This document shows, piece by piece, positions 1 through 58,074 of a stretch of DNA of 64,000 bases. Below the pieces are notes generated by a model. It saw only the letters and a list, made by a program, of their open reading frames with translations. It ran no database searches and was not told the DNA's origin. The number at the start of each line of letters is the position of its first letter. Position 1 is the stretch's first letter. Origin of the DNA: Gracilariopsis chorda (taxonomy: Eukaryota; Rhodophyta; Florideophyceae; Gracilariales; Gracilariaceae). The position numbers and the translations under genes were made by a program. Location of the stretch: contig NBIV01000002.1 of assembly GCA_003194525.1 (NCBI GenBank), forward strand, positions 372,001 to 436,000. Reading direction: 5' to 3'.

Positions 1-3000
1 CACTATTGTATTTAATTATTATAATTTATTATGGTAGTATACCTACTTAGGTGAGCGTGACTTTGTCGTCACGAGCACTAAGTAAAGCTAACCCGAGACT
101 CCGGTCATTCATAACTTTTCAATTTGGCCTGACGTATCCGGCTCTGGATTGGGAGGTCGTTGCGCCCTGTACTACTCCTCGCGGAGGTTCACCGCATTTG
201 GTTCGCTCAATTCAGCCGCTCGGTAAACATACAGATACTCTGTGTTATATTGTCGTTTGAAATTTATTTATCATGTGGTAGTGGTATCGCCCCTGTGGTG
301 GGTAATTTGTACGCTACATCCTGTGCATGTGCACCCTTCGTCAGGTCTGTTTCTGCTTTCCGCACGACCCACCGGCTGGTTTTTCCCCGTCCTGGGAAGG
401 CACTTTTCACCGGGTGTATTCTAAACCACAGCATCGCGTGGCACACTGGTCTCTGGTTTTACCGTCTTTCGGGCTCTGGTTTATCTTTCATTATCCACCT
501 CTGTGGTCAATCCAAAATACCTACGTAGTAAAGTCCGTATTACAGGCATACAGAGGGCTTTGTCACTGGGTCTGCCTCCACAGGGAACATGGCCCCGGAC
601 ACCATGATTGGGATACCCAAACGTCGGGTTTTGGACTACAATGACCTTGGAAGTTATTCAAACTCATTAAGAAAAGGCATTGGTGATGCTGTCCGCTTTC
701 TGGCATACAAGTAGTGCCAGTTTCAGAAGTTGATGTTTTTCTGCAGCGCTATTCTCGCCGTGGCTATCAAACGTGTGGTATGTATAGTCTTGATGGTAAT
801 GTCATATCCAAACCTCTGTCTTAAACACCGCAGTCGAGTGAGCAATTCTCTCCCTGGTGCATTCTTCTTAGTCCAATCGATGAAGAACATCAATATCGCC
901 AGCATTTAAGAGTGCCATAAGTATTCCTGCTCAACTTCTCCCTCAAAAGATCTTTCTTCTTTGTTACAGTGATTCTCGACCTCTACTGCTGGGTTCTGGA
1001 ACGTTCCTGGTACACTTACTTTTCCAAACTCCTTCAAAGTTTTTACTTCTGCCAGTTCAGAGCTTTGTGCATCCCCTCGACTGTTCAACAGCAGCAATAC
1101 ATTCTCATGAAACGAATTCGGTTCAATATAAGGTATTGTCTCATATTGCGCTGCGTCGTCTTCATTTGAAATTGAATGTCCTGCCCCTGGTATGGATGGG
1201 TTTTTTGGACTAAGAAATGTCATTCTCTTTCTTTGAAGGAGATATTGCATCTTCACAGCTATTCCAAGTGTACTCGAACGTTTTTACATCTACCTCGTTT
1301 CCGCTGCTGTTTTAGCCAAGATGCAGCGTGAACTTTGGCTGCAAACCATTTTCGTCATCTCTTGGAATTTGGTACAATATCGAGCTACATACTGTTGTTT
1401 ATGTCCTCCTTATCTCTGGAAAGGGCAGCCCCAGAAACTCGGGGTTATGGTTGGAGTCTATAGCAAATGTTCCATCCTGACCTATCGGTTAGCAGCTTTT
1501 CAGTAACAGAGACCTACCTACTTCCACGGTGACACATATTTGAGTCATCGCAGCGAAAGGGAATGATAGTGTTTGTGGTGCTTTTTACGGAATAAATGGC
1601 AGTAGTGTAGACCGTAGGAGTGTGCGTCACTCTTGGTATCGTATAGCGTATGTGGAAAGTCTAGCAAACTCTCCTTTGCCAACCTCTTTCTCCTGCCCAC
1701 GCTCTTTACTCATTTCAGTCACTGCAGTTCATTTTCGGAAGGTCCTGATTAATAGGTTGGAATCCCTTGTGTAGGGGGATTCTTCGTATCTGAATTCAAG
1801 GTCCTATCAATTATCTCTTTCAATACGGAGTTCAAAACTACCAATGAGTCCGTGAACCAAACGTTTTTCACTTTCTTCAGCACTACCACCTTCCGTACAC
1901 CCGTGTGATATTTCTGATCCGCAGTCTGACTTCTTTCCTCACCTTTTCGATAAAACTTCCTCGTCATGGTTGTTTTGTAACGGATGCATTAGAAGTACTT
2001 CCACCTTCGTGGAAGATGCTCGTCTACTAAAAACTCCGTTGACTCGACAATTCTGTTGCTGATTGTAGCGCTGAAAATGTCTCTTAATCTGGCTTTAACA
2101 CAGACCCATCTATACGTCTCGGTGACTGCGGAGTCATACCCAGAAGTAAATATGTTCTTTGGCACACATCCTGTATTTCTCGCGCTCTGTTCCACTGCCG
2201 ATGTAAAGTAAGGAAAAAAGCTGTGTACATCTCGTTGCTGTTCTTACTTCAGAGTGTCCAATATTTAATTATTGGGTTCACACCTCCAATTCGCGTCAAA
2301 TGGAGACGGGAGGCTTCGGTCCACTACTGCCTCGAAATATTTATTTGCATGGATTGAACATTTGAACTTCAAACTGTCACCATATGACAGAAAACCTTCT
2401 TCCGTTCCATCATCGTGCATTACCCTTTCCATCAACAGAAGTCTTCAGTGATATTCATCGATATCTATCAGCAGAACGACTCAAACAATTGCACAGGCAG
2501 AGTGATAGAACGTTTCTGTAAGCGATGCAGTAGGAATCTCCACCTGATAAACGGTCGGAACTATGAATTTCACATTCTTCACCATTGCAGCCATTCAACA
2601 AAGACACAAGCCTAGATCTGGATGGCAAATTACATCACTGACAGGAGGATCTAGTTCTATTGACCTTGCCCCAAGCAACACGTCGCAAAACATCTCACGC
2701 AGTTTTACATATGATATGAAACATTGCCAGTATCTTCCTCCCTTTCCCCATGGCAGATCCTAGAGTGATGGAAAGTTAACATCCGCCTTTCTCATTACCT
2801 TCTGAGGTTGAAGAATCCAGTGAAAAACTGGTGTCTCTGTTCATATCTTCATAAAACCACTGAAGTCTGTCTGCAATTTCACGCGTACGTGACTGTACAC
2901 CAGCTCTTCGTCGTCTCTCATAGTCTTTATCCTCACTTTCCGACTCCAACAAATCCAGATCTTCGATATCGTGCTCCATGGTATACATATGAACCAAAAC

Positions 3001-3300
3001 AGGCCTTTGGTTATTTCTTATTCCAAAATGCAGCGCATGGCGATGCTATAGGTGGCAGAGTATCGGATGATGTCGTCGAGACTGACAGAGTGTTGTTCGC
3101 TAGGTTTACAGCCCTTATTTATCGGCGTTCTCGTTGTTGCAGTACGTCGGTGTTCTTGTTATGCTAGTTTGGCATTCAAAAGGCAAAGAATTAAAATGAA
3201 CGAATAACGACTCTTCAAACCCAATTTTGAATGAATAAAATTTCTCAAAATAATTCCATACATAGCACAGAGCTAGTTTGCTTGGGACAAAAGACTAGCA
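1..3300. other. Eroded coding remnants, unclassified
   Basis: No intact gene is visible. The minus strand carries a run of short open stretches (about 2997-2776, 2195-1989, 1967-1749, 1256-906, 905-723) whose composition looks protein-like: an acidic start with Asp-Glu-Ser clusters, then mixed segments, the last two separated only by one stop. They could be remains of one transposon gene read right to left, but I recognise no catalytic motif in them and cannot name a family. The plus-strand open stretches look like chance. Confidence 0.3.
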
Positions 3301-3683
3301 GTATATTACACATTTCCCAGTTTCTTTGGATGTAAAACTAGCGCCAGACTCCACTAATACCTACCCTCTCAGGTGCACATGGAATCCAAATCTTACTGGT
3401 CCTGAGCGAGTGCCCCTTCAAATAGCAAAATAGAATAGATAAAATAGATAGAATAGATACATAGCGTTTACATAACCAAATAGCTTTGGATTTCTATCAC
3501 CCGTTCCCCGACCTGCTGCCTGCATTGCATGCTCTACCCCACGCCCTACGAAAAGCCGCTCTGCATCACGTGCACCACCTCATCTACGTGCGCCATAATA
3601 TTTCGCTCCCCGATATCCCACTCCGCCACCACCCTCCCTTCTCGGTTTCCAAGCATCCTGTTCTCCGTTCTCCTTCCCCCGCC

Positions 3684-4622
3684 ATGATACCCTGTTGCCA
3701 TCCCCGTTGCACTTTCTATGGCGGCACCGCGGTCTCTCTCCAGAGTCACCAACGCCAGTGCCCTCATCGACTCACCCCCGACAAACGCCCTTCCTCGTCC
3801 GCCAACGCTCCCGTCCAGTTCCCTCCAAGGACCAAGCGACGAAAATCCGTTCCAAACCTCTCCACCATTCCTCCTCCCACTCCCTCACACCGCCTCTCCG
3901 ACAACGTCCCCCTCGCCGAAGATGAACCCTGTCACATCCAACAGGCCTCTCTTTCCCTCCAAACACAACACGCAAACCACATGGCAAGTCACGCCCTCTG
4001 TTCAGTCTCTTCCTCAAACCCACCTCCCCATCACTCGTCCCGATCCCCCTCCCCTTTCCTCGACAACCCCCATCTCTAGCAACTCGTCCTCTGCATCTGA
4101 TCCATCGCTTCCTCCTTCAGCACACGCAAAGCCGACGAACTCATCTGTCTTCTCAACGACCCAGACTTCTCCAAGTCAGCCTTCCAAAAATCCATCTCCT
4201 CCGCAAAGCTGTGCCTCGCACTCCAAGAACACCTCCTCAAGGAATGCATCAGCTCCACCGGCTTCCTCCCTCTCACACTCACCGACGATCACAACTCCTT
4301 CTCCGCAACCCTCTTCCAAAAACGCGCCACAGACGTCCTGAAGCAACAACTCGCTCTCGCACACTTCAACAACACCTTCTTCCAACACGTCTCCCAATCT
4401 TTCCCTTCCTCCTCTTCCACCCCCGCCTTCGCCCATTCTATGGCCGCAGCCTGTGGAAACAAAGTCGTTCCTGCCTTCAAACAAGCCATCATGCAGTGCC
4501 ACATCAATGACATCGTCTGGCACACGCCTGAAACAACCGGTATGGAATCTTTCGTCGGTCTCGTCCAGTTACACTCCGATAAGTCCGCCACCTCACTCAA
4601 GAGCTCCTCCATCAACTCATAA
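3684..4622 (+). CDS. Small zinc-finger-like protein, one probable intron (unknown function)
   Basis: I do not recognise a family. The first in-frame ATG (3684) opens with a cysteine-histidine cluster: Cys4/Cys5, Cys9, His22, Cys26 and His28, spaced like a small zinc finger. A Pro/Ser-rich linker with a KRRK basic patch follows, then a helical domain that begins TRKADELICLL and runs to 4622. Two in-frame stops at 4077-4110 fall in a segment that ends at a pyrimidine-rich acceptor (CTTCCTCCTTCAG, ending 4120). Removing 4037-4120 (84 nt, donor GTCCCG, which is weak) keeps the frame and gives 284 residues. The open frame extends upstream of the ATG to 3486, so an upstream exon is possible. It converges on the coiled-coil gene ending at 4647. 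It could be a transposon accessory gene rather than a host gene. Confidence 0.4.
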
Positions 4623-4646
4623 CTTCTTCAAATCACCCTTCTCAAC

Positions 4647-6129
4647 TCATTCATCCTTCCTACCCGCTTCACGAATCGACTCCCATCTCTCCCTCTCAAT
4701 CTCAACGCCAACCAAGTACTTCAATAGTTCATTACTTACTCCTCGTGACGAAGGCGTGTACGAACTCATCTCAGACGCAATCTCAAACGGACATTGAGGT
4801 ACAATCTCCTTTCCTCCCACAACAAACACACTCCCCTCTTTTCCCTTCCCCAATACTTCGCATCGATTCGTCCAGTTCCTTTCCACACCCTCCGAAGTAA
4901 AACAAAGCTCCGATACCTCCAACGTCGAATAGTACAACAACCTATCATATACTACCCTGGCAAACCCATAAAAACCCTTTTGCACACCAACCACATACTT
5001 CCTACGCCCTCGCAATTTCTTTTCAACTTCAGATCCCTTTCTTTCCCCTCTTCTCACCTTCATTTCTTCCCGTAAGCTATCTATCAGCATATTCTTCTTG
5101 CTCATCTCTTCTCTCATCCTCTTCAGTTCCTCTTGTGTGAGCGTCAGCGACTTCTTTAGGCTACAGTGGTCCCCTTTGATCTGCCCGAGTTCTGCCTTCA
5201 ACATATTGACCCTCTCAACTAACGAAGATCGACACATCACACCGATGTCTTCATTCCCTGCATCTCCCCAAATATTGACAGGCAGCCGTCGCTCCTCAGC
5301 AGGCTCACTTGGCGATCGATGAACACTTCGTTTCCTCTCTCACATTCCTTCCGCAGTCCACGGCGTTCTGTTTCCTTTATCACTTCCCAAATCTTGACCC
5401 ATTTGCACCTTTCGCGCCCGTACCGGGGTCCTGGTACAGTTTCCGCTTTTAGATGCTTCCTGTATTCCATCCGTCGCTCTGACCACTTCTTCCACTTCTC
5501 GCGTTTCCTTTAAATCAGAGTGGCGTCCCACTCCTTTCTTTATTCTCTCTCTCGTCCATCTCCCCTTCACAATATGATCCTCTTCGTCCCCATCACTCTC
5601 TACCAAAAGGGACATTTACCTCTCCTCCATATTGATTTCCCCTTGGGGCCCCACCTATCTTCAGCGCAACTGCCTCTTCCATTTGTTTCCTTTCCGGCAT
5701 TTCTTCTTCTTTATGTCGGTCTTCAACCCAGGCATTTGCTTTCAACCCTCCCTGATCTGATACCTCTTCTCTTTTCCTAGCAACCGACCCTTTCTTACCA
5801 ACCTCCCCACCATCAGACCCAGGCATAGATCGCTGTCCTCAAACCGAATCTCTCCCGCGTGCTACATGCGCATGGGCATCCGCCTTCAAATTCTCACTCG
5901 TCGTGCGCTCACTCGTCGTACGCTCGGATCCGACGTTCTTTGCCCCACCTCTTCCCCCTGTCTTCGAAAAACCTTCTCCTGACCTCCTCCCCGATAATTC
6001 GCTCCTGGGAACACATGATTTCGCTTTCGTTCCACTCGTGGTTCGCTCCTGAATAGCCTTTCGCCGCGTCTTAGGCGCACTCACCGCATCACCCCTTGCC
6101 GGGCCCCGCTTCTTTCCCTTCGGCGCCAT
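4647..6129 (-). pseudogene. Charged coiled-coil protein gene, interrupted
   Basis: Read on the minus strand, the gene starts at MAPKGKKRG (6129) with a very basic region containing a doubled SERTT unit (about 5905-5930, where CTCACTCGTCGT-like DNA is repeated). It continues through Lys/Glu-rich segments (5838-5593, 5615-5340, 5470-5237) and ends in a 197-residue open segment (5240-4647) with a clear heptad coiled coil around SLTLTQEELKRMREEM. A stop and at least two frame changes separate the segments. One of them could be a short intron (GTTTGAG...GGGGAG, 42 nt, in frame), but I cannot account for all. No family recognised. Length about 490 residues if continuous. It lies between the zinc-finger-like gene and the methyltransferase-SET gene and may belong with them in one mobile unit. 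Confidence 0.4.
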
Positions 6130-6426
6130 TATTGGAATCAAATCTCTCGCGCAAGTGGCTAGTGACGCTCTGGGATGGCGCACGCCGTGTGGTGTCCGGG
6201 AAAATCTCGCTACCCAATGCGCATAAAAATCTTTGTTTTTTGTGAAATCCGGAGAATACAATCCTCCGTGGTACCAACAATGGACGTTTCTGTATTACAT
6301 CTATATCGCTTTGTATCTTATATCATTACTGGAAAGTGATGTTCTCCTAAGTTAGGACTACACATATGTTCAAATAATAAACGTCGCCCTTTAGCCAAGC
6401 TGTGGACAAAGGTTTATAACAACAAA

Positions 6427-9400
6427 CTAATCAATGACTATCGTTCCCTCCACCACATTCAAATGGGTTTGCCAGTCATAAACATCACCGTATCTGGTGA
6501 AGAGTTCCTCTCTTTGCTCTATGTCGGCTGTCGCCTCCATCTTAATAAGTTTGTAGTCCGTTATTCCCCCTGGTGTTCGTCCCACTCCCGGTGTCCATTT
6601 CATTCGCACATTAGCCTCCTTTTTCTTCACGAGGCCATACACCATGGCATCTAACTGTTTATCCCCTTCCACGTACTTTGGATCCTTGATATACCCTGCA
6701 ATACAAAAAGGGGAAGGGACCACCCATAAAATGTGGTTTGCTTGTTTTCCATGCCAATTTGTCAGCTGTTTTCGATGCGGAAGTGATTGGAACTGTTGAC
6801 CGTAGACTTCCATCTCCACCGCATACTTCAGAAGCGATACTTCGTCACACCCATGACTCCCTCCCCGTAGGTCTTGTGCACTTCTTTCCGATTCGAAAGG
6901 TCATGATAAACCAACGTCCCATACAAATAGCACACTACCTCGCCTGCAGCAATTCGACGAGTTGCCAACACTCCAACACCAGCCTTTTCGTGACGAATAG
7001 TAGACTTGCCCACTCGCAACCCATATTGCACAGCCTCCATTGCCAAGAGAGACTTCATGTTCTCCAGATTCATTCTTCCCTGCAGCTCCCTCGGCCATCC
7101 ATCCATAGCTTTCTTCCTTCCCAACTTCCCTATAATTTCATTTTGCCACAAAGTGGAGAGAAAGTCGATAACGTGTGGGGGAAGAATTTGGTACGGTCGA
7201 AATCCGTCGACAGCCCTCCATAACACGGTGTGCCTACTTCTTCCCATTGGGAATGCAGAGGAAACACAATGGGCCATCTTTCGAAGCTCCTGGCTCTTCT
7301 CAATATCCGTGTGTCCTTCCCGTATTATGGAAGCGAAGCGAACAATAGCGGCATGCCTGGCGTGTTCAAAGCAAGCTTTGTCCGGTTCACACCACACAAA
7401 CTTCCGATGCTTGGGCTGTTCCATGCACGCTATCGCTGTCGAGAACGTTCCGGCAAACATGTCGACCACGAGGTCTCCTGGCTGACTGAACCTACAACTC
7501 AGCTCTTTCAACAGTGCCCTACACTTCTCTTCCGGTGGCACCCTCTTCCTCGTATACTTCCCATCCGGGTTTTTCACAGACCACATGAGCATCTTACTAT
7601 TTGACATCGGCGGCACCTGATCCATGATTGCATGATACGCTGGGTATAGTAAAGCAACATAACTGAAGGTCTCATAGTTGAACATCCGCTGCTTTTGTGC
7701 ATAAGGAACCCTAGAACGAGCAGCATGTACAGCGTATTTTGTCGTCTGGTGCAACCGGCAACTTCTTCTCCCAACGCTACCCGTCGTATTACCTAAAGAC
7801 CGTAAGAAATGGAGGGGCTGTTCGTCGAAGACAAAGAAGTAACGCATCGTATCAGAGTCATCCATGTAGGTAACTTTCCGTAGCACATCCCGCCACAATG
7901 GTACCTGATCCCATGAGCAGAACTGTATAATATGTACATCAGGACGTAGAAGCTTTGAGGACCTCCTCGCTGACCTGCTCATGCCCTTCTCTGTCAGAAT
8001 ATCGTGTTCGCTGTTCTCTAAACGAAGCTCAGAACGAGTCCCATATGGCGGATCGGAAAGCAGGAACTGTACCCTTCGTTCAATAGATACCTCGCTTTCG
8101 CCAGACTTGTTGTCGTCAACTTCGATGAGATTTTCGAACTTGCAGTTGTGGAGACGGAAGTTGCGGGACATCTCCTCCTCACAATACTTGTAAGCTATCA
8201 CATCATCCAAAGTCGTAGGGTACGGTGGTGCACGAATCCCCGTGCCTTCGACATCATACTATAAGTTCTGCGACAAAGCTGTTGTCTGCAGTCCTTCAGT
8301 GGCCTTTGGTGCAGTACCACGTTCCACAGTACCACGTTCTGCATCCTCTACCATCTCTATCTCTTCCACGTCTTCCAACTCACCCTGATCACCACCTTCC
8401 ACACGCTCAGCACGTTCGTTCCCACCACCAGCCGTACCAATTTCTACCCGCTCCGTAATGATGTCAACGTCTTCTGCGGGCTCTGGTTTCACAGCTTGAT
8501 TTACTTTGACATTGCTTCCATGCCATGCAATGAGCTTCAGAGGCGTTATGGCCTCCTGAACCGTAGTGAAAAGAGATTCACTAAAGTTCTCAAACCGCAG
8601 AGGGAAAAGTCTCGTTCTCGTGATGATGAAACTTTTGAGGGCATCCCATTTGCTGGGAGCGGAGATGTCGAACAATTTCTCTTGTACCACGACATTAGAA
8701 AGGTCACCAAGGTATTCTTTGGCACAAAGGCGAAGCACTGTATCCACTGGGTCCGGCAGATTCCATGCCCATTTGGTAACGTTTTCTTCTACGGTGGTGA
8801 CGTTCTTCTCCTCCACAAACTGTTTGGAACAATTTTTGTGTTGGAAGCCCATGGAGCGTTGTGCGATATCGGTGAAGACTACGCTAATATAGTCGAGTCG
8901 AATGTAAGGCAAGATCATAACCTCAACGTTTAGAAACCCGAGGAATTGGGCGAAACAATCCCAAGCCCTGGTCACCAGCTGCACACCATACCCGACTCTC
9001 TGACTCTAGGTCTTGTCCGACAAACTCACTTTCGAGAACTTCTTAGCTGCCATGCCCCTTTTCCTCTTCCTACCACTTCCTTTCTTATCCACGGCATTCT
9101 GTTGCACCATAGACAACCCAATGACCGTTTCAAAGTCGGTGCAAGGATCCATGAGGAAAGCGGAACATTTCTTGGTTGCTCCCAGAACACAGGACTTGCA
9201 AAAGACAGATCGCAACACGTTACGTGGAATTCCTTTAAGCCCTTCCCTTTTACAATAAACCTTCCAAAAGTCCCTTACACTCCTGTCTTCTTCACGGTCC
9301 TTTAAGTCCACCACTCTTGCCATAAGATAGAGTTGACGTGGAGGGCCTCTGAGAGACATGTTACGCAGCTTGGAGTCTGAATACGAGATGTAATCCGGTC

Positions 9401-9578
9401 CGATGAGAGTGATAAACATTTTCTTCGCAGAGTCATGAACGTTGCGACTTTGTACCACGAACTCCACAGAGTCGGTGCGCTTCAAACTTCTCTGCTTATC
9501 CACATTTTGCGTCGTCGCTGCGTAGTCATCACGAACTGCAAGATAAGCATCAATAAGCTCTTCTCCGATTCCGTGCAT
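6427..9578 (-). CDS. Beta-class DNA amino-methyltransferase fused to a SET domain
   Basis: Predicted dual chromatin modifier. Proposed exons on the minus strand: 9578-9030, 8978-8318, 8245-6851, 6806-6427; introns of 51 nt (GTGAGT...GTGCAG), 72 nt (GTACTG...TCGAAG) and 44 nt (GTGTGA...TGGAAG). Together they remove two in-frame TAG codons and a frame change and give 994 residues. N-terminal third: unrecognised domain with KRKRG basic patch, then a Glu/Asp-rich linker. Methyltransferase: SDPPYGT (near 8045) is motif IV; GDLVVDMFAGTFSTA (near 7455) is the F-x-G AdoMet motif. IV before I is the order of beta-class N4-cytosine or N6-adenine DNA methylases. The C-terminus reads as SET: GVGVLATRRIAAGEVV (near 6970) and REELFTRYGDVYDW (near 6475), with an AxYIxx...EAN stretch between. 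The third intron is the least certain; a one-base indel is the alternative. Family assignments are by motif only. Confidence 0.65.
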
Positions 9579-9615
9579 CTTGAATGAACTCGTTTCATTT
9601 GGATTGTGTTTCTCT

Positions 9616-9925
9616 TCGTTTTGGGTCGAGGTCCGTGGTCGGAGGTGTCATGGTGCTCCATCGCGAACACGATGTAGCGCCAGGCATGAATTTTAATCAA
9701 AATTTCGCGCCCTGGCGCTCCATCGTGTTCGCGATGGAGCACCTTGACACCTCGGACCATGGTCCTCGCCCAAAAAATTATCAAATCCTTTTTGCAATGC
9801 AAGTAATTGGGAGGGGAATTGCAGAGATGCTACGTTGACGAAAATGGATGTCATGAAACGTCTTGAAAACGATATATAGTGCTTACGTCCATCTCTTTGG
9901 AACGAAGCAGGCGTGATCACGGGAG
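9616..9925. repeat. Direct repeat copy 1 (310 bp) containing a fold-back element
   Basis: This segment recurs almost unchanged at 10103-10412. The similarity covers the fold-back MITE and about 150 bp beyond it, ending at GTGATCACGGGAG in both copies. It begins about 40 bp upstream of the start codon of the methyltransferase-SET gene, so it occupies that gene's proximal promoter. Confidence 0.85.
9623..9771. mobile_element. Fold-back MITE, copy 1
   Basis: The 149-bp unit begins GGGTCGAGGTCCGTGGTC and ends with its reverse complement, GACCATGGTCCTCGCCC with a few mismatches. Arms of about 65-70 bp surround a short AT-rich centre (ATTTTAATCAAAATT). It encodes nothing. Long, nearly complete palindromes of this size are typical of non-autonomous MITEs; the parent transposase is not identified. 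Confidence 0.75.
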
Positions 9926-10102
9926 TTTCAAAAGAAAGGGGTAACACTGTTGGAGACGACCACTCCGGTGCTTTGTTTAACAAGAAAAAGTTGTTCTTCG
10001 GGTTCTATAGAGGTTTTCAATCGCCCAAACCGACGCAACAAATGCGGTTGCGAAGAATGTGCAAGTTGCTTTTGACTTGGTTGCCACGGATTATGCTTCT
10101 AT

Positions 10103-10412
10103 TCGTTTTGGGTCGAGGTCCGTGGTCCGAGGTGTCATGGTGCTCCATTGCGAACACGATGGAGCGCCAGGCATGAATTTTAATTAAAATTTCACGTCCT
10201 GGCGCTCCATCGTGTTCGCCATGGAGCACCACGACACCTCGGACCATGGTCCTCGACCAAAAATTTATCAAATTCTTTTTGCAATGCAAGTAACTGGGAG
10301 GGGAATTGCAGGGATGCTACGTTGACGACAATGAATGTCATGAAACGTCTTGAAATCGATATATAGTGCTTACGTCCATCTCTTTCGAACCAAGCATACG
10401 TGATCACGGGAG
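10103..10412. repeat. Direct repeat copy 2 (310 bp)
   Basis: Second copy of the 9616-9925 segment, offset by 487 bp and in the same orientation. About 175 bp of unrelated sequence (9926-10102) lies between the copies. Mismatches are scattered single bases. Confidence 0.85.
10110..10258. mobile_element. Fold-back MITE, copy 2
   Basis: Same 149-bp palindrome as at 9623-9771. The arms match each other over the motif GAGGTGTCATGGTGCTCCAT and its complement. The centre is ATTTTAATTAAAATT. Confidence 0.75.
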
Positions 10413-11333
10413 CATTCGACGTCAGCGGGTGCCAAGAAAACGCAAGCGCGACCTTTGAAGTACTCAGCCATAGATTCCACTGGGAATAAGATAAACGTGC
10501 CACCACGGAAACGGACTCCGAGGAAGCCTGTTTCACCAAAGAGACGTGTTATCGACACGCTGACCACGCGAGGCAATGCGAAGAGCCGGGGTGCCACCCG
10601 AACTGCCATCCACCCTGAGCCATCAATTGGGGGCAGTACGGGTCAGGTGCTTAAGGGCGATGCGGAGGTCAATCTGTTCGTACGAGTTGGGAGTAGTGAT
10701 GCAAAGGTGATGGTAGGAGAGGCGAAATTGCGCGGTGTGGGGGTTGCTGGGGGGCCGGGAACGAGACTCTGTCGTTCACTACACAACCATCCCCTGTCCT
10801 CTACGCAGAGACCTGGAGAGGATTTGGTGGTTATCTTTAAGACAAATATTTCGTCACACCGGGGAGGTGGAGGGAGACGAATGGATGGGTTCTACCGCGA
10901 TGTGAAGGAACTATTGAGGAGCACTGGGGGAGGGCTTAAGGAGCGTTTGGATGAGTGTATTGAGGAGGTTTTCGAGGAGTTGGGAGGGATGGTTCTGAGT
11001 GCGTCGGAGGAAGAAGTGCCGATGGGTGCTGTGGCTGAGTTGCGCCGGAGGGTGAGGGAGGCTGGGGTGTGGGCAGAGCAGCACGTCGATGGGGTTGTGG
11101 CGTGTGTGGAAGAGGAGCTGGGGAGGCTGTGGAAGGAGAATGAGGAGTTGCGAGGACGTATTTTGGAGTTGGAGAAGCGGCTTTTACTGGTGGACAGGGC
11201 TGTGCATCTAGTCGAGGATATGCGGAACAAGATGTATGGAGGTGGAGGGGAAGGTGGGGTGGGAGGTGCTGTCGGGAGTGGGTCTCCGGTTACTCCTGGA
11301 GGTAGAGGGGGCGTGAAAAGGAGGTTGGAGTAG
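10413..11333 (+). CDS. Hypothetical protein, basic N-terminus and C-terminal coiled coil
   Basis: No family recognised. The frame is open from about 10405 to the TAG at 11331-11333, but it has no ATG near the start; an acceptor-like GACGTCAG at about 10426 suggests an upstream exon, or translation may start at the ATG in MDGFYRDVKELL (about 10880). Visible parts: an Arg/Lys/Pro-rich region with two RKP patches (PRKRTPRKP, VSPKRR), a middle region with TGQVLKGDAEVN, a long Leu/Glu heptad coiled coil (EELGRLWKENEELRGRIL), and a Gly-rich tail ending VKRRLE. GC content rises sharply compared with the flanks. The basic-plus-coiled-coil plan resembles the interrupted gene at 4647-6129 in layout only, not in sequence. 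Confidence 0.45.
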   Translation, partial: HSTSAGAKKTQARPLKYSAIDSTGNKINVPPRKRTPRKPVSPKRRVIDTLTTRGNAKSRGATRTAIHPEPSIGGSTGQVLKGDAEVNLFVRVGSSDAKVMVGEAKLRGVGVAGGPGTRLCRSLHNHPLSSTQRPGEDLVVIFKTNISSHRGGGGRRMDGFYRDVKELLRSTGGGLKERLDECIEEVFEELGGMVLSASEEEVPMGAVAELRRRVREAGVWAEQHVDGVVACVEEELGRLWKENEELRGRILELEKRLLLVDRAVHLVEDMRNKMYGGGGEGGVGGAVGSGSPVTPGGRGGVKRRLE

Positions 11334-11609
11334 AAGGAAGAAAAAGGATTGGAGGTTAACAGTCGGTTGAAGAGGAGGCATGGAAAGAGGGAAGAGGGAG
11401 AAGAAGATTAGCAATGTTTAGGAGTGTCGTTGAGGCTGTTAGGACGACGGAATGGGTGGTATTGGAATCTGATGCGCGGTGCGTCGGGTGTGTGAAAATG
11501 GAGAGAGCTGCCCAGATGAGTTCCTGAGGATGAGTTGGAAGTCAAACTAGGGCAGTATGAAGTTTGAAATTCAAAAGACGGAAAAAAAAATGTTAGTTTT
11601 GGTTGGGTG

Positions 11610-11652
11610 CTCGAAATGGCGCTGGCCGGGCAGCGGCCAGCGCCATTTCGAG
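11610..11652. repeat. Perfect 19-bp inverted repeat (hairpin)
   Basis: CTCGAAATGGCGCTGGCCG is followed by a 5-nt loop (GGCAG) and its exact reverse complement. It lies about 280 bp downstream of the coiled-coil gene stop. The perfect GC-rich stem could be the core of a small fold-back element or a structured 3' RNA element. Confidence 0.85.
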
Positions 11653-14280
11653 ATCTGTATCTAGCTTTTAGTGGAGAATGAACTTGCTCCAAACTTGAAA
11701 CTAGCGATGCGCAGTGCAGGTGAGCCAAGGATCTGTAAGATATGGAAGTGTGAATTCCAAGAAAGAACACCGACGTACTTATGGTTAGTTCTGCCATATA
11801 CGCCTCACTTCTTTTAAGGCGTTTACAACATAAAGATTATTACCGCAAGTAGTGTTCTTTTTTTACCCGGCAGTGCAATATAATCGAGAAAGATTTGTAT
11901 AAACTGAGGATTGGTGGTGTGGATAATGTAGATACAGACTGTCAGTGTATGGTTGAGGATGGAGATGATAGACCTGTTGTTGTTGTAAGTCGCGTAAGTG
12001 CATTCACAGACCAGTATTTGTTGTACATGATCGCGCTGAAAGGCCAGTGGCAGGTGTGCATGGGTATTACGGGCTGTCTAAACCGATTTGGTTGTTGTTG
12101 ATCGGATCAAAAGGCTGGTGGCAAGTGTGTGTGGGTCCCCTAGGCTGCCTATGGCCAGTAAATGTTGTAGGTGATAAGGATGAGACGTCAATGGCAGGCG
12201 TGCATGGGTGGTGTCGGCTATACATGGGCAGTGTATATGACAAACACAGTGTCTGGTTTTGAAGATGGCGCCATTCTCTAAGATATGCACTTCAGGATCG
12301 CTATGTATTGTGCAAAGTGAAACATTGCCCAATAAGCTGTTTGTTTGCTGTGAATATTCATTTATGGAGATTTATTCGATGTATTTCTGATGGTAACGGG
12401 CTGCTATTGGCTGTTTTGGGCATTCCCAAAAACGTCGAGGTCTTGGGTGGTTCACCCGGGCCTTTTCTTTTTGCTAACAAGCTTTTATTGGCTGTTTTTG
12501 GTACATATGCCACACAAAGTGGATTCGCTAGATCTCTTATATTATTCGATAGCATTTCTTGGCCAATCAGCATTTGTTTCATTGACTTGCACTCAGGCCC
12601 GTTCAACGAGTTGACAGTGATGATGAGAGGAAACTTTGGGCATTGTTTTTTCCACTTTTCCAAGTATAAAAGCGTTCTCTCAGTCTGGAAAGAAAGTGTT
12701 CTGTCTACCCTGGATATGCCTCGTTGGAGTTCATGCTGCATAAAACATGCTCAACTGCCAATTTGAAGACGCACTCAAACTTTTGCAGGCTTCTTGCTTA
12801 CGCCTGCCACCCTCACGGAACAATCCAATGCAGTGGCTTCGTCAAGTCGCTGTTCACAGTCTGAACACCCTTTTAATATCTGCACCTGCCAGGAAGATGT
12901 TGCATGAGCCAAAATACATCTTGAGATGAGCACATTTTCACTATCACAACCTCATATAAAGCATATCTGATGCACTGTTCACCCACATGTACCGAATAAC
13001 AAAGGCGTAGTATATCTTTCTAATTTTCACTTTGCATGTTACACTGAAATGCTGTCAAAGATTGGACGCAACGATTGCCAATACAGTATCACCGGCTGTT
13101 ATGTTGTTTGTGACGCTAAGGTTAGGAGCCGGAGCTAGTTATTTGCACTTGTGTTTGACTTATGGGATAGCAGTTCTGACCGTTTATCGAGTATTTAAGG
13201 ATACATTGTGTGCTTTGAATAGGACTCTGGCCGATGTGCACTTTCTTTGGACATAATCAGAATATTTAATAAGCGGGCAAATGTTCCAACAGCTACGAAA
13301 AGTCCATTTGATGGAGTTATAGGAGTGCTAGACGGCATTGCTATTTGGATACATTAACCTTCACTATCGGAAGTTGCAGATACACGAAAGCAGAACAAAA
13401 GTAAAGTGGTTTTTGCAATTTTTATGCAAGCAGCAGTTGAAGCAAATTACAAGTTCTCGTTCATATCTACAGAGCATGCCAGCAGCACGCATGACTCCAC
13501 CGCTTTTTCTGCATCAAAGTTTTACGATTTGTTGCCAAGTTATTGTCTTCTGAGTGTTGAACAACTCCTTTTGGCAGACGTACCGAAGAACCTCTTCATA
13601 GGAAGTTGATCCCCCTTGGGTTTATGCTACCTATTATACGAGTTTTCCCTAGTAAGGATGCATTAAGGTGGCCCGTGCCCTGGGTGGAATTCCCGATGGG
13701 CTAGTTATGAATAGCTCTGTATGGGTGTAATGCGCGGTACGCGCGGGAATGTTTGGCTCCGATATCAGAGTTTTATGCAGTATTTTATTTAGTTAGTTTT
13801 AACTTTGGCCCTGACACTGAGATCTCCACGTGTATGACCCTTAGAAGATGTGCACTAATTTATTTAACCACTTAAGGACGAGTGACCTCGCGCTCGCGAG
13901 TCCATAGTAAAACCAACCAACTGGGGCTTTATCTACAAGTGCCCTCCTCGGGTTACGACTCCTCGCAGAAAGTATCAAAAAGTGATTCCATTAGTAATCC
14001 CCTTGAACGCTCAGGTTATCTGCATCACATTGCCTGTGGGGCTTCTAACTCTATTGTTATTATCGTTTGTGTTTCCTTTCGAGGACAGGTTTCCGACCCT
14101 ATATAGGGATATTTCTTCTTGTTTTCCCCTGGTTTGTTCGGGTCGGTGGCCTGCATGTGCACAAACCTCGTGCATGTTTTCTGGCTGCTTTCCCGATTTC
14201 TGATAGTGACACGGAGTACAGCGGATCCGGTAGAGAATCTTTCCCGAGATTGCAACCTCTGTAGGTTATTCCTGAATCCC
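11653..14280. other. No convincing gene; degenerate repeats
   Basis: About 2.6 kb without recognisable genes. Positions 12030-12235 show three diverged copies of a 70-80 bp unit sharing GGCAGGTGTGCATGGGT-like cores. A 127-residue minus-strand open frame (12741-12358) has an ATG but no family signal and is weak. A perfect CCCTATATAGGG palindrome lies at about 14097-14108. Other open frames look like chance. Confidence 0.4.
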
Positions 14281-17469: not shown

Positions 17470-18932
17470 GAGGAAGCGACCTTCGGCTGCGGGTGGTGCT
17501 GCATGCCGCGCTGGAGGAGTGATAAAACGCGGTGGGAAGAAAGAAGGGTACAGAAAGCAGACGCAGAAAAGCAAGTAGTTTAATTCAATGAATGAAGAAC
17601 GCAAGAAAGATGAATACGGTTGTGGAGGGTTGCAGAACTGAATGGCTTCAGGCAGCACTGGGTTTGCGATAGCCACAGGCATAGGATGAATTGTGTGAGT
17701 ATTCGCGGATGTAAGTTGCGGGTCGTGTAGGAGCAGCACATGGTCGTTCCTTCGAACGCACGACAATGCAACATACAACTGACCGGCGCAGAAGAAATTA
17801 GATTGCACATCCACAACCAAGCCATCCAAGGTCTTTCCCTGTACTTTGTGAACAGTAGCTGCAAACGAGAGACGAATGGGGAACTGCCTTCGAATCATGC
17901 GAATATCTGTGCAAGTAAACTCGAAGTCGATACGATGCAGGAGCTGCCGTTCTAGAAACTGTCCGTTTTCGTCCAATCGAGCCACCTGCATCGTAAATTG
18001 ATCGACATGCCCGACTACGAACAGCTTTCCGTTGACCACAGTGGGATGCAGCACGTTTCGAATGACCATAACTGGCTCACCGATCGATCTTCAAGTACAA
18101 GTTATGAAGCGGTACTCCAGTAGGCGCATACTGATATGCAAACTCAGGGACGATAGTACTGGCGAATTCAGACTCTGGGTTCTGTCCACGATCAAGTTGC
18201 ACTGTTGTCGCTGACGGAAGACTGAAGCGCTCAACAGGAAACAGATCTAGCGCTGCCGCATTGTTTTCGTCCACCAACTGGTTTGTGGACGCAATGAGCA
18301 TTTTCCTGAGTTCCGCATCCTCCTTGCGTCGTGTTGTGAGCAACTTCCACAGGAATAGGTAGGCGGTTTGCATGCCACCGGTAGATCTGAGTGGTAGTAG
18401 AACGTTGTTAGATATTGTGGTTCGTGCAATGGAACGTAACAGCGACGCAAATGCCGGATCATCGGCTTGGCGTACTTGTTCGGTGAGGTACAGCACTTGA
18501 ACCGAGCACAATGTCCACAGATCACTCTTCCACGGCAATTCGTTCAGAATGTTTGTGTAGACTCTTCTCACATTTCCACTTGGCTCGGCCTCCAATTACA
18601 CCTGTGGCACCACTGGAAGCAGCTGGGAGTAGTCGCCGGATAGAACGATGGTCAAGCCCCCGAACGGGGGCGGGTTTTCCATTCCAGTGTAGCAAAGATC
18701 TTTGAGCAACGCATTCAAGAGTTCAAAAGAGCTTTCGTGAGAGCATGGACGCCTCATCCAAGATCAGCAGTTGTATTTCACGTAGGAGTTCTGCACGTTG
18801 AGATTGGGGACCGTACTTTGACAAAGTGGCTGTAGTGCTGCTTGTGCTGTCTCTATCAGCTACACCCAGTCCGAGCATGCTATGTAAAGTGCGGCCACCT
18901 TCGTACAACAAAGCTGCAATGCCTGTTGTAGC
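17470..18932 (-). mobile_element. Helitron helicase tail, inverted partial copy
   Basis: Minus-strand copy of the 3' half of the Helitron helicase at 24854-26330, nearly identical in DNA. It covers the end of motif Ia, Walker B (LILDEASMLS), the middle helicase region and the conserved C-terminal RLSFAATVHKVQGKT motif of PIF1-type helicases. The homology breaks sharply at 18932, where it joins repeat A. Both copies share the same in-frame TAA after VVPQV and the same frame change after SRKLF, so the damage predates the duplication. Near 17470 the copy diverges into unrelated sequence. Confidence 0.85.
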
Positions 18933-19412
18933 AGGAGACCTGCACACGAGCGCGGCTTTGCCCAGGTCCCGGGCCAGCAACAGTGCCCACAGTAGGAAAA
19001 TGTTACGACACTGCGCTATTGGCCAAGCCTGTATGTAATGCAAAATAATGGTTAGGGTCAGCAAGCGAGATGCATTTGGCACTGCGCCAGTGCATTATAC
19101 ACGTCTGTTGCAGGCATGTTTGCAATGAAACTTTAGTATACACTGCATGGCGGAGTGCAATTTCCCACGTGTCGGAATGAACCGCGGCGTTTTGCTGCTG
19201 AGAGACTGGCACTACAACTTGATTTTATTGCAAGCCATTCAGCAGCAATTGCAAAGTCAACATGCAGCAGCAGCAGCAGACTAACTGATCCCTTTGCTGC
19301 TGCTGCTGCTGCTGAATTATTCAAATGGTAGGGTGTCATTGCCCCAAATGGGCGTTTTGCATGCCCAAACGGGGGCATGCAAAAGGAATTTGTGGCTCAA
19401 CGCCTCCCGTCA
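18933..19412 (-). repeat. Repeat A (Helitron-associated, CAG/CTG-rich)
   Basis: Read on the minus strand it begins near GACGGGAGGCGTTGAGCC (19412). It carries CAG-repeat tracts, the motif CACTGGCGCAGTGCCAAATG and TGCTGACCCTAACCA, and ends in GTGTGCAGGTC at 18933, where the helicase fragment starts. The same order of motifs occurs in repeat B in the opposite orientation. Confidence 0.65.
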
Positions 19413-20320: not shown

Positions 20321-20515
20321 CCTTGCAGCAATGTTTTTAATGGCTGCATGCGACTAGGCCCGGTCGGTGCAAAGCAACAAACTGCAACCAGTTTTTCACA
20401 CTCAACAGTTTGTTATATTGGAAATTATTCTGGAACTCTGGCAAATGTTTTACCGGTTTAAAAAAATAGAATTGTTTTTTTCTTTTTTTGGTGAATTGAA
20501 ATGACTCGAGGAGGT

Positions 20516-20897
20516 CCACGTCCAAACTTTGGTTGGGCCAGACCGAACTCTAGAGGTGCTCCAAGGAATTCTGGAGGAGCCAGAGCCAATTCTGAAGGTG
20601 CACGAGCCAATTCTAGAGGTGCACGAGCCAATTGTGGAGGTGCACGAGCCAATTGTGGAGGAGCAGGAGCCAATACTGGGGGTGCTCGAGCCAATGCTGA
20701 AGGTGCCGTGCCAGAGATAATTCTGGAGGTGCCAGAGCCAATTCTGGAGGCGCCAGACAGAATGCTGGAGGTCCTCGAGCAAACGCTGGAGGCGCTAGAG
20801 CCAATTCAGAAGGGGCCAGAGCCAATTCCGGTGGTGCAAGAGCCAATTCGGGAGGAGCCAGAGTGAAATCAGGCGGCGCAAGGCCAGGAGCTGGATG
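20516..20897 (+). repeat. 21-bp minisatellite coding (A-R-A-N-S-x-G)n
   Basis: About 17 tandem units of 21 bp on the theme GGTGCACGAGCCAATTCTGGA. In frame they code a 7-residue unit (ARANSGG/ARANCGG), a low-complexity Gly/Arg/Asn head on the Helitron protein. One length change near 20705 shifts the frame between the two halves. Confidence 0.85.
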
Positions 20898-21179
20898 AAC
20901 TCGGCGATTACCAGTTCCTCCCGCTCCAGATGACATGCCGGTAAATGAGAGCGGAGCGCACGTGCAAGGACCCATTGTTCCAGCCGTGGAAGAGGACGAA
21001 ATTACTCCTGCATCTACTTACGTTGCAGCTGCAGATAGCACAAGCGCCGCTGGAGCCAGTGGGGTCTGTTGCCATACGTCGACCAACTTCGTGCCCAATT
21101 CCTGGGTTTCTGGAGTTTGTGAAAGGATTTCCAAGTCATATTCGACCGCCTCCAATGCCTCCCCCTCTCTCACCGATGC

Positions 21180-24400: not shown

Positions 24401-26371
24401 CCGGAAAAATGTCCGTCGAAAACTGGGAGGCGCTATGTAGCGACGTTCATACAGGAGATGAGCAGAAACGAAAGAAAAATAGTATTGACGTGTGGTGGAA
24501 ATCTCAGACCGGCACGGAGGACGACTGCTTCGCGACCACAGCTTCCTCTCCCAAGACCTACAGCATGATCATACAGCATTGACTGAGGCAAATCGAGCTA
24601 CAACAACTCAAGATGCGCAATTGGTGCGAAATTAGTCAACTTTGCAGTCAAGGTACGCCACCTTAAAACCTCGCCAAAGACAAGTCATTGACACCGTCAT
24701 TGCCGCATTGCAACAACGAAAGGCGCTGCAGGAGCGAACAAGCACTCCTGGAAACGTGTTCTTTGTGCAAGGATCCGCAGGAACCGGAAAGACATACGTG
24801 CTCAACCTCCTTCGTGATATCGCTGAGTCGGAAGGAATGCTCGCCGAAATGACTGCTACAACAGGCATTGCAGCTTTGTTGTACGAAGGTGGCCGCACTT
24901 TACATAGCCTGCTCGGACTGGGTGTAGCTGATAGAGACAGCACAAGCAGCACTACAGCCACTTTGTCAAAGTACGGTCCCCAATCTCAACGTGCAGAACT
25001 CCTACGTGAAATACAACTGCTGATCTTGGATGAGGCGTCCATGCTCTCACGAAAGCTCTTTTGAACTCTTGAATGCGTTGCTCAAAGATCTTTGCTACAC
25101 TGGAATGGAAAACCCGCCCCCGTTCGGGGGCTTGACCATCGTTCTATCCGGCGACTACTCCCAGCTGCTTCCAGTGGTGCCACAGGTGTAATTGGAGGCC
25201 GAGCCAAGTGGAAATGTGAGACGAGTCTACACAAACATTCTGAACGAATTGCCGTGGAAGAGTGATCTGTGGACATTGTGCTCGGTTCAAGTGCTGTACC
25301 TCACCGAACAAGTACGCCAAGCCGATGATCCGGCATTTGCGTCGCTGTTACGTTCCATTGCACGAACCACAATATCTAACAACGTTCTACTACCACTCAG
25401 ATCTACCGGTGGCATGCAAACCGCCTACCTATTCCTGTGGAAGTTGCTCACAACACGACGCAAGGAGGATGCGGAACTCAGGAAAATGCTCATTGCGTCC
25501 ACAAACCAGTTGGTGGACGAAAACAATGCGGCAGCGCTAGATCTGTTTCCTGTTGAGCGCTTCAGTCTTCCGTCAGCGATAACAGTGCAACTTGATCGTG
25601 TACAGAACCCAGAGTCTGAATTCGCCAGTACTATCGTCCCTGAGTTTGCATATCAGTATGCGCCTACTGGAGTACCGCCTCATAACTTGTACTTGAAGAT
25701 CGATCGGTGAGCCAGTTATGGTCATTAGAAACGTGCTGCATCCCACTGTAGTCAACGGAAAGCTGTTCGTAGTCGTGCATGTCGATCAATTTACGATGCA
25801 AGTGGCTCGATTGGACGAAAAAGGACAGTTTCTAGAACGGCAGCTCCTGCATCGTATCGACTTCGAGTTTACTTGCACAGACATTCGCATGATTCGAAGG
25901 CAGTTCCCCATTCGTCTCTCGTTTGCATCTACCGTTCACAAAGTACCGGGGAAAGACCTTGGATGGCTTGGTTGTGGATGTGCAATCCAACTTCTTCTGC
26001 GCCAGTCAGTTGTATGTTGCATTGTCGTGCGTTCGAAGGAACGACCATGTGCTGCTCCTGCATGACCCGCAGCTTACATTCGCAAATGCGCACAAAAATC
26101 ATCCAATGTCGGTGCCCCTCACCAACCCAGTACTGCCTGAAGCCATTCAGTTCTTCATATCTCCAGAAACATCATCATATCTTTTTCGTCCTTCATTTAT
26201 TGAAGTAAAATAATTGCTTTTCTGCTTCTGCTTTCTGCACCCTTTTTTCATCCTACCACGTTTTATCACTCTTCCGCCGCGGCGCGCAGCGCTTTCACGG
26301 CTGTAGGCCGCTTCGTCTCGTCTCAAAACCCCCCGTATTATAATGATTTACACATGTATAAGGGGAGTTTT

Positions 26372-46735: not shown

Positions 46736-49180
46736 TTACTTGTCCCGACTTTGCTTCAAATGCTCGGTGGCTATCTTCAGAGCTTCCGTGTATGCTGCAG
46801 CATCTTCAGATGGTGTCGTGTCAACAAACCGATTGAAGTACTCATCCATACTGGCCGCTTTGAATTTCGGAATGTTGCTCACCATCGCATAGTAAAATGA
46901 TGCCGCTTGCACTTCCTCCACACACCTGCTCTGTGCCATACTCGTCATGACCTCCAACCGGCCTATTCTACTCAGGCCGTCATCATAAAGCGAGCAGTAC
47001 AGTTCCCCGTTTTGTTTAGCCACCTGACGAATGCAAGTCAAGTACGCGTTGATCTCATGCGCTTCCTCAAAGTACTTTTCGAAGCGACCGACCTCCGTCG
47101 CATACTCCTCTTCAGTTGGTAGCAAGTCATCATATATTTCGTCCATAACCGACGGCGCGTCGAGCCCAGCAGCAGACAGATGTGTAAGCGCCATTCTTCT
47201 CATTGTCAGAGATGCCGCTCTTTCAACAGCTGATCCCCTGTTGTTCACATCCACTGCAAATGCTCCATACAACGTCTCCTCTCCGTTGGATGTTTTGCCG
47301 ATAACGCCCTTTCCCCCGAGACTGTGGTCTTCTATTTCAAGAGCCCGCCCCTGCATATCACTGAATCGTCTGAATTTACCAACTTTCCCACATTGCGCCA
47401 ACTTTTCGTCAAGTGGTTGAACTTGGCCACGGAGAGACTTCCTAGCAATATCCGAACATGAAGCAAATACCGGCGAGACGATGAACGCATCATATTCTTC
47501 ATCGTGAAGAACAAGCTTGTTCGCAGTGTTGCTCACATGAATCTCCGAGTATCTTGCTGGCACATGTCTAGCAATCCCAGCTTCCAATAGAACGTGCAGC
47601 ATGCTGTGTATTTCAGTCGGTGATGCGATAACCTGCGTCATGATCTTACTAAAGTTGTCAACAAGTGCCTTATTCGACTTGTGTGTGCAATATGAACGAG
47701 TGCTAATTGCTGCAACTTCAGCACGGTGGTACATCATTGAGTGCCGCTCTTTCCACGTTAGGGGGGCCATAGCGTTCATTTCTTCAATTAGCTTGTCGAG
47801 ATTCTCCTCCAGGCCAAAGCCGCTAATGCAGCTCAACGCGGCTTGACGCCATGCTCCACTTACAGTCTGTGTTGACTGAGCGAGGAAGTACTGTTTTGCC
47901 TGCATGTCGCCGTTCAGTTCAGCGAGCCCGGCCATACGTCTGCACTCCAGATGAAACTCTGTCTCCTGGAACTTTCTAGCCAAGAACTCCTTTGCTGAGC
48001 CTGAGTAGTCGTCGATGAGAACTTGTTCCGGCGTCTTGTCGGTAGCTCGGGCAACTGCAGCTTCTAGGATACTATACCAGGTCCGAAACACTTCTTGTCC
48101 ATGATCATGAAGGAAAAGTGCGTGCATGTGCTTGGTGTTTCCAAGCGCTTTACACTTCTGCCGCCACTCAGGAGTCGTAGTATGGCGTGGTGTGCAGGCC
48201 TTGCCGGTGGTTTTACTCACTAGAGTCAACGCCCCCTGGTACTTCCTTTTTGCTTCTTCTCTCACCCGATATCCGAGGAGACTTCGGTCATCCTCTTCAA
48301 AAAGATCCATAACGTTGGACAGAGCATTAATCTGGTCAAGACCTGAAAGGCTTAGGCCACCACTGATGATTTTTGCCCCTTGGAGGAGCTTACCCTTTCG
48401 ATCAAGGAGATTCCTTTTCTTGAGAAATGATGACAGGTCCTTTGCGTTCATGGACTGGCAAAAAGTGTGAGCTCTGACGTCTATGTCGTCAATTGGCCAA
48501 GAGAGGGTGGTTCCGGTGTTCAGGCGTACCAAATCTGTTTGAAAACGCGATAGATACTTGTCCTTGATGCCCCTCACCAAAACCTCAGTACAGGAGCCAC
48601 CATCAGTGAGTATTCTCTCCACCAGAGACGAGGAAAACACATCTATTTTGAAGAATGGAAGTCGCTCTTCGGCGAGCGAACGAATTTTGTCAAATGTTTC
48701 CAGTTCTTCTTCTCCTACACTGCGACGAAGTAGGAATGCACGATTGAATTCAAGTTCACCATTAGATGAACTTGACATTGGCCCAGCTGAATGTTGGAAC
48801 ATTACGGCACCACAAAGATTGTGTTTTCGAAGCTCAGCATAGTACTCATCAAGGTTTTCGTTGCCGAACTTCTTTGCATATCTTGTCTTGTAGCTTAGTA
48901 AACCCAGAAGCTGCTCGACGTCAGTACTGGATTTTGGCAGAGGTAATGGGAATACAATGTCATCTTCGGTCGGACTGTTCATTGTACCTGTATGGGCCTG
49001 TGAAAAAGCTTCTCCACCTCCGAGTGTGGATTTCTTTTCGACGATTGAGAGAGAGATGTTGTATCTTGCTCCAAGGTCGCTTAAAGCGTCAAAGTGTTCT
49101 TTATACAAGAGCTGAAAGACCATTTCAGAATTAGCTTGAATAATGCTGCGTGGGCCGCCGCCGACCAATAGTGCATGCAT
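46736..49180 (-). CDS. Large FAD/NAD(P)-binding protein (PF13454-like)
   Basis: 814 residues, one exon. The N-terminus MHALLVGGGPRSI is a dinucleotide-binding strand-loop-helix of GxGPRx type, and LGGGEAFSQAHTGTMNSP (residues ~52-70) matches the second conserved block of the FAD_NAD_binding_9 family, which is mainly bacterial. The remainder is helical and unlike any domain I know; SGGLSLSGLDQINAL and SDIARKSLRGQVQPLDE are ordered segments. No signal peptide or membrane span. The ATG at 49180 lies in a CCACCATG context, 106 bp below a TATA box. The substrate is unknown. The single-exon structure and bacterial-type fold are compatible with horizontal gain, but most neighbours are intronless too. 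Confidence 0.72.
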   Translation of the reverse strand: MHALLVGGGPRSIIQANSEMVFQLLYKEHFDALSDLGARYNISLSIVEKKSTLGGGEAFSQAHTGTMNSPTEDDIVFPLPLPKSSTDVEQLLGLLSYKTRYAKKFGNENLDEYYAELRKHNLCGAVMFQHSAGPMSSSSNGELEFNRAFLLRRSVGEEELETFDKIRSLAEERLPFFKIDVFSSSLVERILTDGGSCTEVLVRGIKDKYLSRFQTDLVRLNTGTTLSWPIDDIDVRAHTFCQSMNAKDLSSFLKKRNLLDRKGKLLQGAKIISGGLSLSGLDQINALSNVMDLFEEDDRSLLGYRVREEAKRKYQGALTLVSKTTGKACTPRHTTTPEWRQKCKALGNTKHMHALFLHDHGQEVFRTWYSILEAAVARATDKTPEQVLIDDYSGSAKEFLARKFQETEFHLECRRMAGLAELNGDMQAKQYFLAQSTQTVSGAWRQAALSCISGFGLEENLDKLIEEMNAMAPLTWKERHSMMYHRAEVAAISTRSYCTHKSNKALVDNFSKIMTQVIASPTEIHSMLHVLLEAGIARHVPARYSEIHVSNTANKLVLHDEEYDAFIVSPVFASCSDIARKSLRGQVQPLDEKLAQCGKVGKFRRFSDMQGRALEIEDHSLGGKGVIGKTSNGEETLYGAFAVDVNNRGSAVERAASLTMRRMALTHLSAAGLDAPSVMDEIYDDLLPTEEEYATEVGRFEKYFEEAHEINAYLTCIRQVAKQNGELYCSLYDDGLSRIGRLEVMTSMAQSRCVEEVQAASFYYAMVSNIPKFKAASMDEYFNRFVDTTPSEDAAAYTEALKIATEHLKQSRDK

Positions 49181-53064: not shown

Positions 53065-53099
53065 GTTCCAAATTACTCTGATCTGGAACGGTAGATCGG
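53065..53099 (-). repeat. Right terminal inverted repeat of the pogo-like transposon
   Basis: The segment containing AAATTACTCTGATCTGGAAC is the inverted counterpart of 50288-50322. Confidence 0.85.
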
Positions 53100-53109
53100 T
53101 TTACCCCGT

Positions 53110-58070: not shown

Positions 58071-58074
58071 ACTT

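Follow-up and report, generated by a model that had tools for sequence, protein, structure and literature searches.

Can one polypeptide carry both a DNA methylase of bacterial type and a SET domain, the module that marks histones in other proteins? The question is raised by a minus-strand locus in the window (the whole stretch of 64,000 nucleotides of Gracilariopsis chorda DNA analysed here), for which the initial annotation had raised the prospect of a protein that could mark DNA and histones alike. Bacterial-type amino-methylation of DNA is contested as a eukaryotic epigenetic mark, and a gene that fused both writers would make the link between DNA and histones directly testable with one protein. 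We find that the pairing is real: methylase and SET occur in one eukaryotic coding unit, and as far as could be checked the combination is a new one. The copy described here is probably no longer functional. The locus is best explained, we think with slightly better than even confidence, as a decaying copy of a eukaryotic methylase–SET fusion gene, and it suggests that at least one eukaryote has had such a fusion.

Genes for a protein kinase, RCC1, WD40, APC5 and a short-chain dehydrogenase show the window to be eukaryotic. The span 6427-9578, which like all features of the locus is read on the minus strand, consists of four open pieces rather than a single coding frame. The first (9006-9578, 190 amino acids) begins with an ATG at 9578, has coding-like codon usage when taken as a whole, and ends in TAG. 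The second (8259-9005, 248 amino acids) lies in the methylase frame, carries an acidic stretch ahead of the methylase, and also ends in TAG. The third (6828-8258), an open stretch of 476 codons, stop included, has the methylase and the first third of SET in the same frame; for the methylase by itself, a Met at 8171 would be a possible start. The fourth (6427-6831) holds the second part of SET in a different frame, and again ends in TAG. Between the ATG at 9578 and 6828, then, the methylase frame is interrupted by TAG at 9006-9008 and at 8259-8261, and with the frame change near 6830 this makes three breaks. The motifs of the locus had all been assigned to the same minus-strand frame. This is correct for DPPYGT (8037-8054), DMFAGT (7446-7463) and GVGVLATRRIAAGEVV (6933-6980), which share the 476-codon stretch, and incorrect for REELFTRYGDVYDW (6472-6513, containing REELFTRYG), which lies in the other frame. 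None of 1000 first-order Markov sequences, simulated with matching length and composition, reached 476 codons; the longest open stretch among them had 210. Upstream of the methylase, coding-like sequence continues in its frame back to the ATG at 9578. No Pfam, PHROGs or NCBIfam domain was found in 9006-9578 or in 8259-9005, and both may be part of a different gene. An HNH nuclease chain weakly resembles 8259-9005 (E 0.005 and 0.004) through a single segment of 89 residues, a match that we dismiss as chance.

The methylase half is recognized by hmmscan as an N6_N4_Mtase domain (PF01555) at 7365-8072, corresponding to residues 63-298 of the 6828-8258 piece and to profile positions 1-217 of 221; the match (E 2.8e-9, 37.7 bits) is above the curated cut-off of 26.7. 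Catalytic motif IV (DPPYGT) precedes the AdoMet motif I (DMFAGT), and the permuted, beta-class order that had been read from these motifs is thereby borne out. In motif I, Phe replaces the second Gly of F-x-G-x-G, such that FAGTF aligns with FMGSG of DpnA (DMFAGTF versus DPFMGSG); F-x-G-x-G is typical of motif I, not strictly defining, and the PF01555 domain as a whole is still recognized. Among PHROGs, DNA-methyltransferase families are matched, the best being phrog_67 at 2e-11, and among solved structures phmmer finds the adenine methylases DpnA and CcrMI (E 1e-4 to 5e-4) by way of the region from motif X to motif I. The domain resembles DpnA, CcrMI and phrog_67 in DPPY, in motif order and, by sequence, in this same region; it differs from DpnA in having FAGTF where the latter has F-x-G-x-G. 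We know of no bacterial or phage adenine methylase with a SET domain or an N-terminal extension. Because motif IV reads DPPY, adenine-N6 is a likelier target than cytosine-N4, by a rule quoted in PMC8885841 that is a weak guide. Single-sequence AlphaFold prediction of the 476-aa stretch gave a mean pLDDT of 34.7, too low to be of use.

The SET half (PF00856) is divided by the frame change near 6830. When its two parts are joined, which requires joining two frames, they match the full profile (positions 1-105 of 105) at 28.5 bits, against a cut-off of 22.4 (E 2.2e-6), and treating the junction as an intron instead of a frame change leaves the score the same. The domain so defined occupies 6487-6980, its end being computed from the joined match. 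By itself, the first part scores 13.2 bits (E 0.13), below the cut-off, and the second has no match in Pfam and none among SET proteins of known structure. First parts joined to shuffled second parts (n = 8) scored 16.1-20.1 bits; none of the eight reached the cut-off, and none extended past profile position 60. Most of the score therefore comes from the first part, with only about 8-12 bits added by the second. The best matches of the joined sequence among solved structures, KMT2C (E 0.07) and SETD8 (E 0.38), are weak and involve its first part only. A SET domain in the C-terminal part, and its union with the methylase in one coding unit, had both been proposed from motifs; the joined profile match upholds the first, and this match, the shuffle control and the PF01555 match together uphold the second. 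Like the SET lysine methyltransferases KMT2C and SETD8, the domain matches PF00856 at full length, starts with G-x-G (GVG) and ends with Tyr-Gly; REELFTRYG sits at the end of the joined match and its Tyr is, by eye, the catalytic one. Unlike these enzymes, to which its similarity is weak, it is fused to a DNA methylase, and in an alignment made by eye it appears to read Lys-Asp (GYIKDP) in place of the conserved Asn-His of the pseudoknot motif. The Asn-His motif appears to be lost, and the SET half may have lost cofactor binding.

Codon usage was scored with values derived from six ORFs of the window; that at 46736-49180 lacks any Pfam match. The methylase frame scores highest of the three minus-strand frames, with host-like codon use, over 9578-9030, 8978-8384, 8383-8262, 8258-7000 and 6999-6852 (51 nt between the first two of these pieces, a candidate intron, were scored apart), and the other frame scores highest over 6831-6697 and 6694-6430. 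The strength of the signal varies. It is weak over 8258-7000, at 0.004 per codon where the six training ORFs give 0.076-0.130, and over 6831-6697, at 0.015, and it peaks at 0.31 and 0.28 per codon in the 120-nt segments 8460-8341 and 8400-8281, just ahead of the second TAG. Of the 45 overlapping 120-nt segments that fall entirely within 9600-6841, 16 have their best score in another minus-strand frame, among them the two over the first TAG. There, the methylase frame scores 0.04-0.07 and another frame 0.07-0.13; the methylase-frame signal is not raised, and so the codon score at this point cannot separate exon from intron.

An alternative to decay is an intact, expressed host gene, its three breaks due to short introns or to errors of assembly and its protein an active, two-headed writer. 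At each of the three breaks a GT..AG intron could reopen the frame: there are 81 candidates over the frame change, 28 over the first TAG and 36 over the second. Among the 28 is a 51-nt in-frame intron (8979-9029) with a GTGAGT donor that would remove the first TAG, and across which the methylase-frame codon signal is, as described above, unraised. Among the 81 is a 155-nt intron (6696-6850) with a pyrimidine-rich TTTGTATTGCAG acceptor, which keeps the Pfam SET match at 28.5 bits and takes in the weakly scoring stretch 6831-6697. DPPY, the GVG start of SET and its terminal Tyr are all retained, too. Because candidates are plentiful at each break, however, a drawn intron is weak evidence. The 155-nt intron would reopen the frame yet remove part of the SET region, and we judge it less likely. 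In SET domains the YxG strand and the Asn-His motif are generally 50-80 residues apart; excision would leave about 30 and, judging by SET structures, would probably take out the middle of the fold. At the second TAG, the in-frame codon signal peaks where most of the candidate introns would fall, and both the Asn-His of SET (by eye) and the second Gly of methylase motif I seem to be lost. Against the reading as a decaying fusion gene stand the weak codon score over 8258-7000, the 16 segments in which another minus-strand frame scores higher, and the ease with which reopening introns can be drawn at all three breaks. We judge decay to be roughly twice as likely as splicing, the difference being small at the first break. 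Assembly error at the breaks is possible. The intact gene we regard, in sum, as unlikely but a serious contender, and a working protein from this locus that marks both DNA and histones is not supported, given two TAGs, a frame change and a seemingly lost Asn-His. Reassignment of TAG was also considered as a cause of the interruptions and was rejected: TAG ends one of the eight other ORFs examined, that with WD40 repeats, and it therefore works as a stop in this window.

If the locus is a decaying fusion gene, its ancestor would have been one protein of about 1,050 residues, comprising an N-terminal region of about 440 residues with the acidic stretch at its end, then a permuted amino-methyltransferase of the kind found in bacterial restriction–modification, and finally a C-terminal SET domain. 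The N-terminal region or the methylase would bring the protein to DNA, the methylase half would add methyl groups to bases, and the SET half would methylate a lysine of histones or of another protein nearby. A mark on DNA and a mark on protein would thus both be placed by a single chain.

Other fusions of SET are known, and in SETMAR its partner is a transposase. SETMAR and a diatom protein of SET and JmjC are both mentioned in PMC3145265. The present locus is like both in joining SET to an unrelated enzyme in one chain, and unlike them in that their partner is not a DNA methylase. The closest published case that we found is N4CMT of bdelloid rotifers, a PF01555 methylase with a chromodomain, stated in PMC8885841 to have no eukaryotic homologs. 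Both are permuted, bacterial-type PF01555 amino-methyltransferases that occur in a eukaryote together with a eukaryotic chromatin domain. By description they differ in that N4CMT has SPPY and a chromodomain where the present locus has DPPY and SET (PMC8885841); a Pfam search of all four pieces, at E up to 1, turned up no chromodomain. In bdelloids, according to the same text, the histone writers, of SETDB1 type, are separate proteins, and the DNA and histone layers are linked in that way (PMC8885841). The Marchantia enzymes MpDN4MT1a and MpDN4MT1b, said in PMC8566409 to put N4-methylcytosine on nuclear DNA, are by that description alike in being eukaryotic and of a base-methylating type. A PF01555–SET fusion was not found in the literature as it was available to us, which included parts of PMC1282579, PMC8566409, PMC12344493 and PMC3145265, and an earlier description may exist.

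No relative was found in the viral, prokaryotic, phage and plasmid collections as searched here, and none that shows the ancestral layout intact. Viral contigs scanned with peptides from all four pieces yielded none; such scans depend on short exact matches, and more distant relatives would escape them. Pattern scans of the same contigs matched 38, 11 and 1 loci, and in a tblastn comparison of the four pieces with these loci a single match fell under E 0.1: what we take to be a phage ParB–methylase-like protein aligned with the methylase over 56 residues at E 7e-4. Of the 12 stretches of bacterial and archaeal genomes matched by the methylase–SET piece, again in a scan for exact short matches, none was a relative, and the back-translated pattern D-x-FAGTF-x-TA-x-x-C had no exact match in the genomes of 84,980 bacterial and archaeal species (one genome each). 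With tblastn at E up to 0.01, the methylase matched 12 of 50,697 phage records and 10 of 72,556 plasmid records, all partially (12-24% and 14% of the query, respectively); the joined SET found nothing below E 2 among plasmids and phages. Intact relatives in the same genome or lineage might yet be single-chain writers of a DNA base mark (N6A or N4C) and of chromatin lysine methylation; a eukaryote would then have captured a bacterial methylase independently and tied it to chromatin by fusion to the histone-marking enzyme itself. We put this forward as a long shot.

A further possibility, compatible with a decayed gene and concerned rather with whose gene it was, is that the methylase–SET unit was cargo of a mobile element, carried for the element's benefit to mark its own DNA or chromatin, and present here as a dead copy. 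The same window contains transposon remains (51393-60142, plus strand), with RVT_2 of Copia type (E 1.7e-11), a DDE_1 endonuclease fragment (22.7 bits, cut-off 22) and an rve integrase below cut-off. Nearer by, a 300-nt repeat occurs in two 93% identical copies 487 nt apart (9601-9900 and 10088-10387), the first of which starts 22 nt upstream of the ATG. Each copy contains a palindrome, with 66-nt arms that are 89-92% complementary and a 26-nt spacer, and looks like a hairpin element or MITE that was duplicated with its flank. Against this origin, 2500-13000 contains no convincing terminal repeats (of at least 18 nt, from an 11-nt seed). The sole inverted pair that brackets the gene at these settings (4402-4427 and 11099-11124) is 26 nt long, 81% complementary and pyrimidine/purine-rich, and looks like chance. 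Neither the four pieces nor the neighbouring ORFs 4647-5240 and 10455-11333 contain a transposase or reverse transcriptase, and the window has no second copy of the gene. We consider ownership by an element possible but less likely than not.

That the SET match is instead a chance resemblance within a C-terminal extension of the methylase is very improbable: the sub-threshold first part, the silent second part, the weak, first-part-only matches to solved proteins and the scores still reached by shuffled decoys all lean that way, but the joined match spans the entire profile and no shuffle attained either its end or the cut-off.

Elsewhere in the window, two 1.1-kb inverted repeats (17834-18934 and 24853-25953), 99% complementary and 5.9 kb apart, are extended by a further pair at 17498-17839 and 25949-26290. 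Pfam, searched at E up to 1, recognizes nothing in three ORFs inside them or in one that overlaps the left arm, and the whole is possibly an element with long terminal inverted repeats. Between the arms, at 20483-20922, an array of 21-nt tandem repeats in two blocks possibly codes for a 7-residue repeat.
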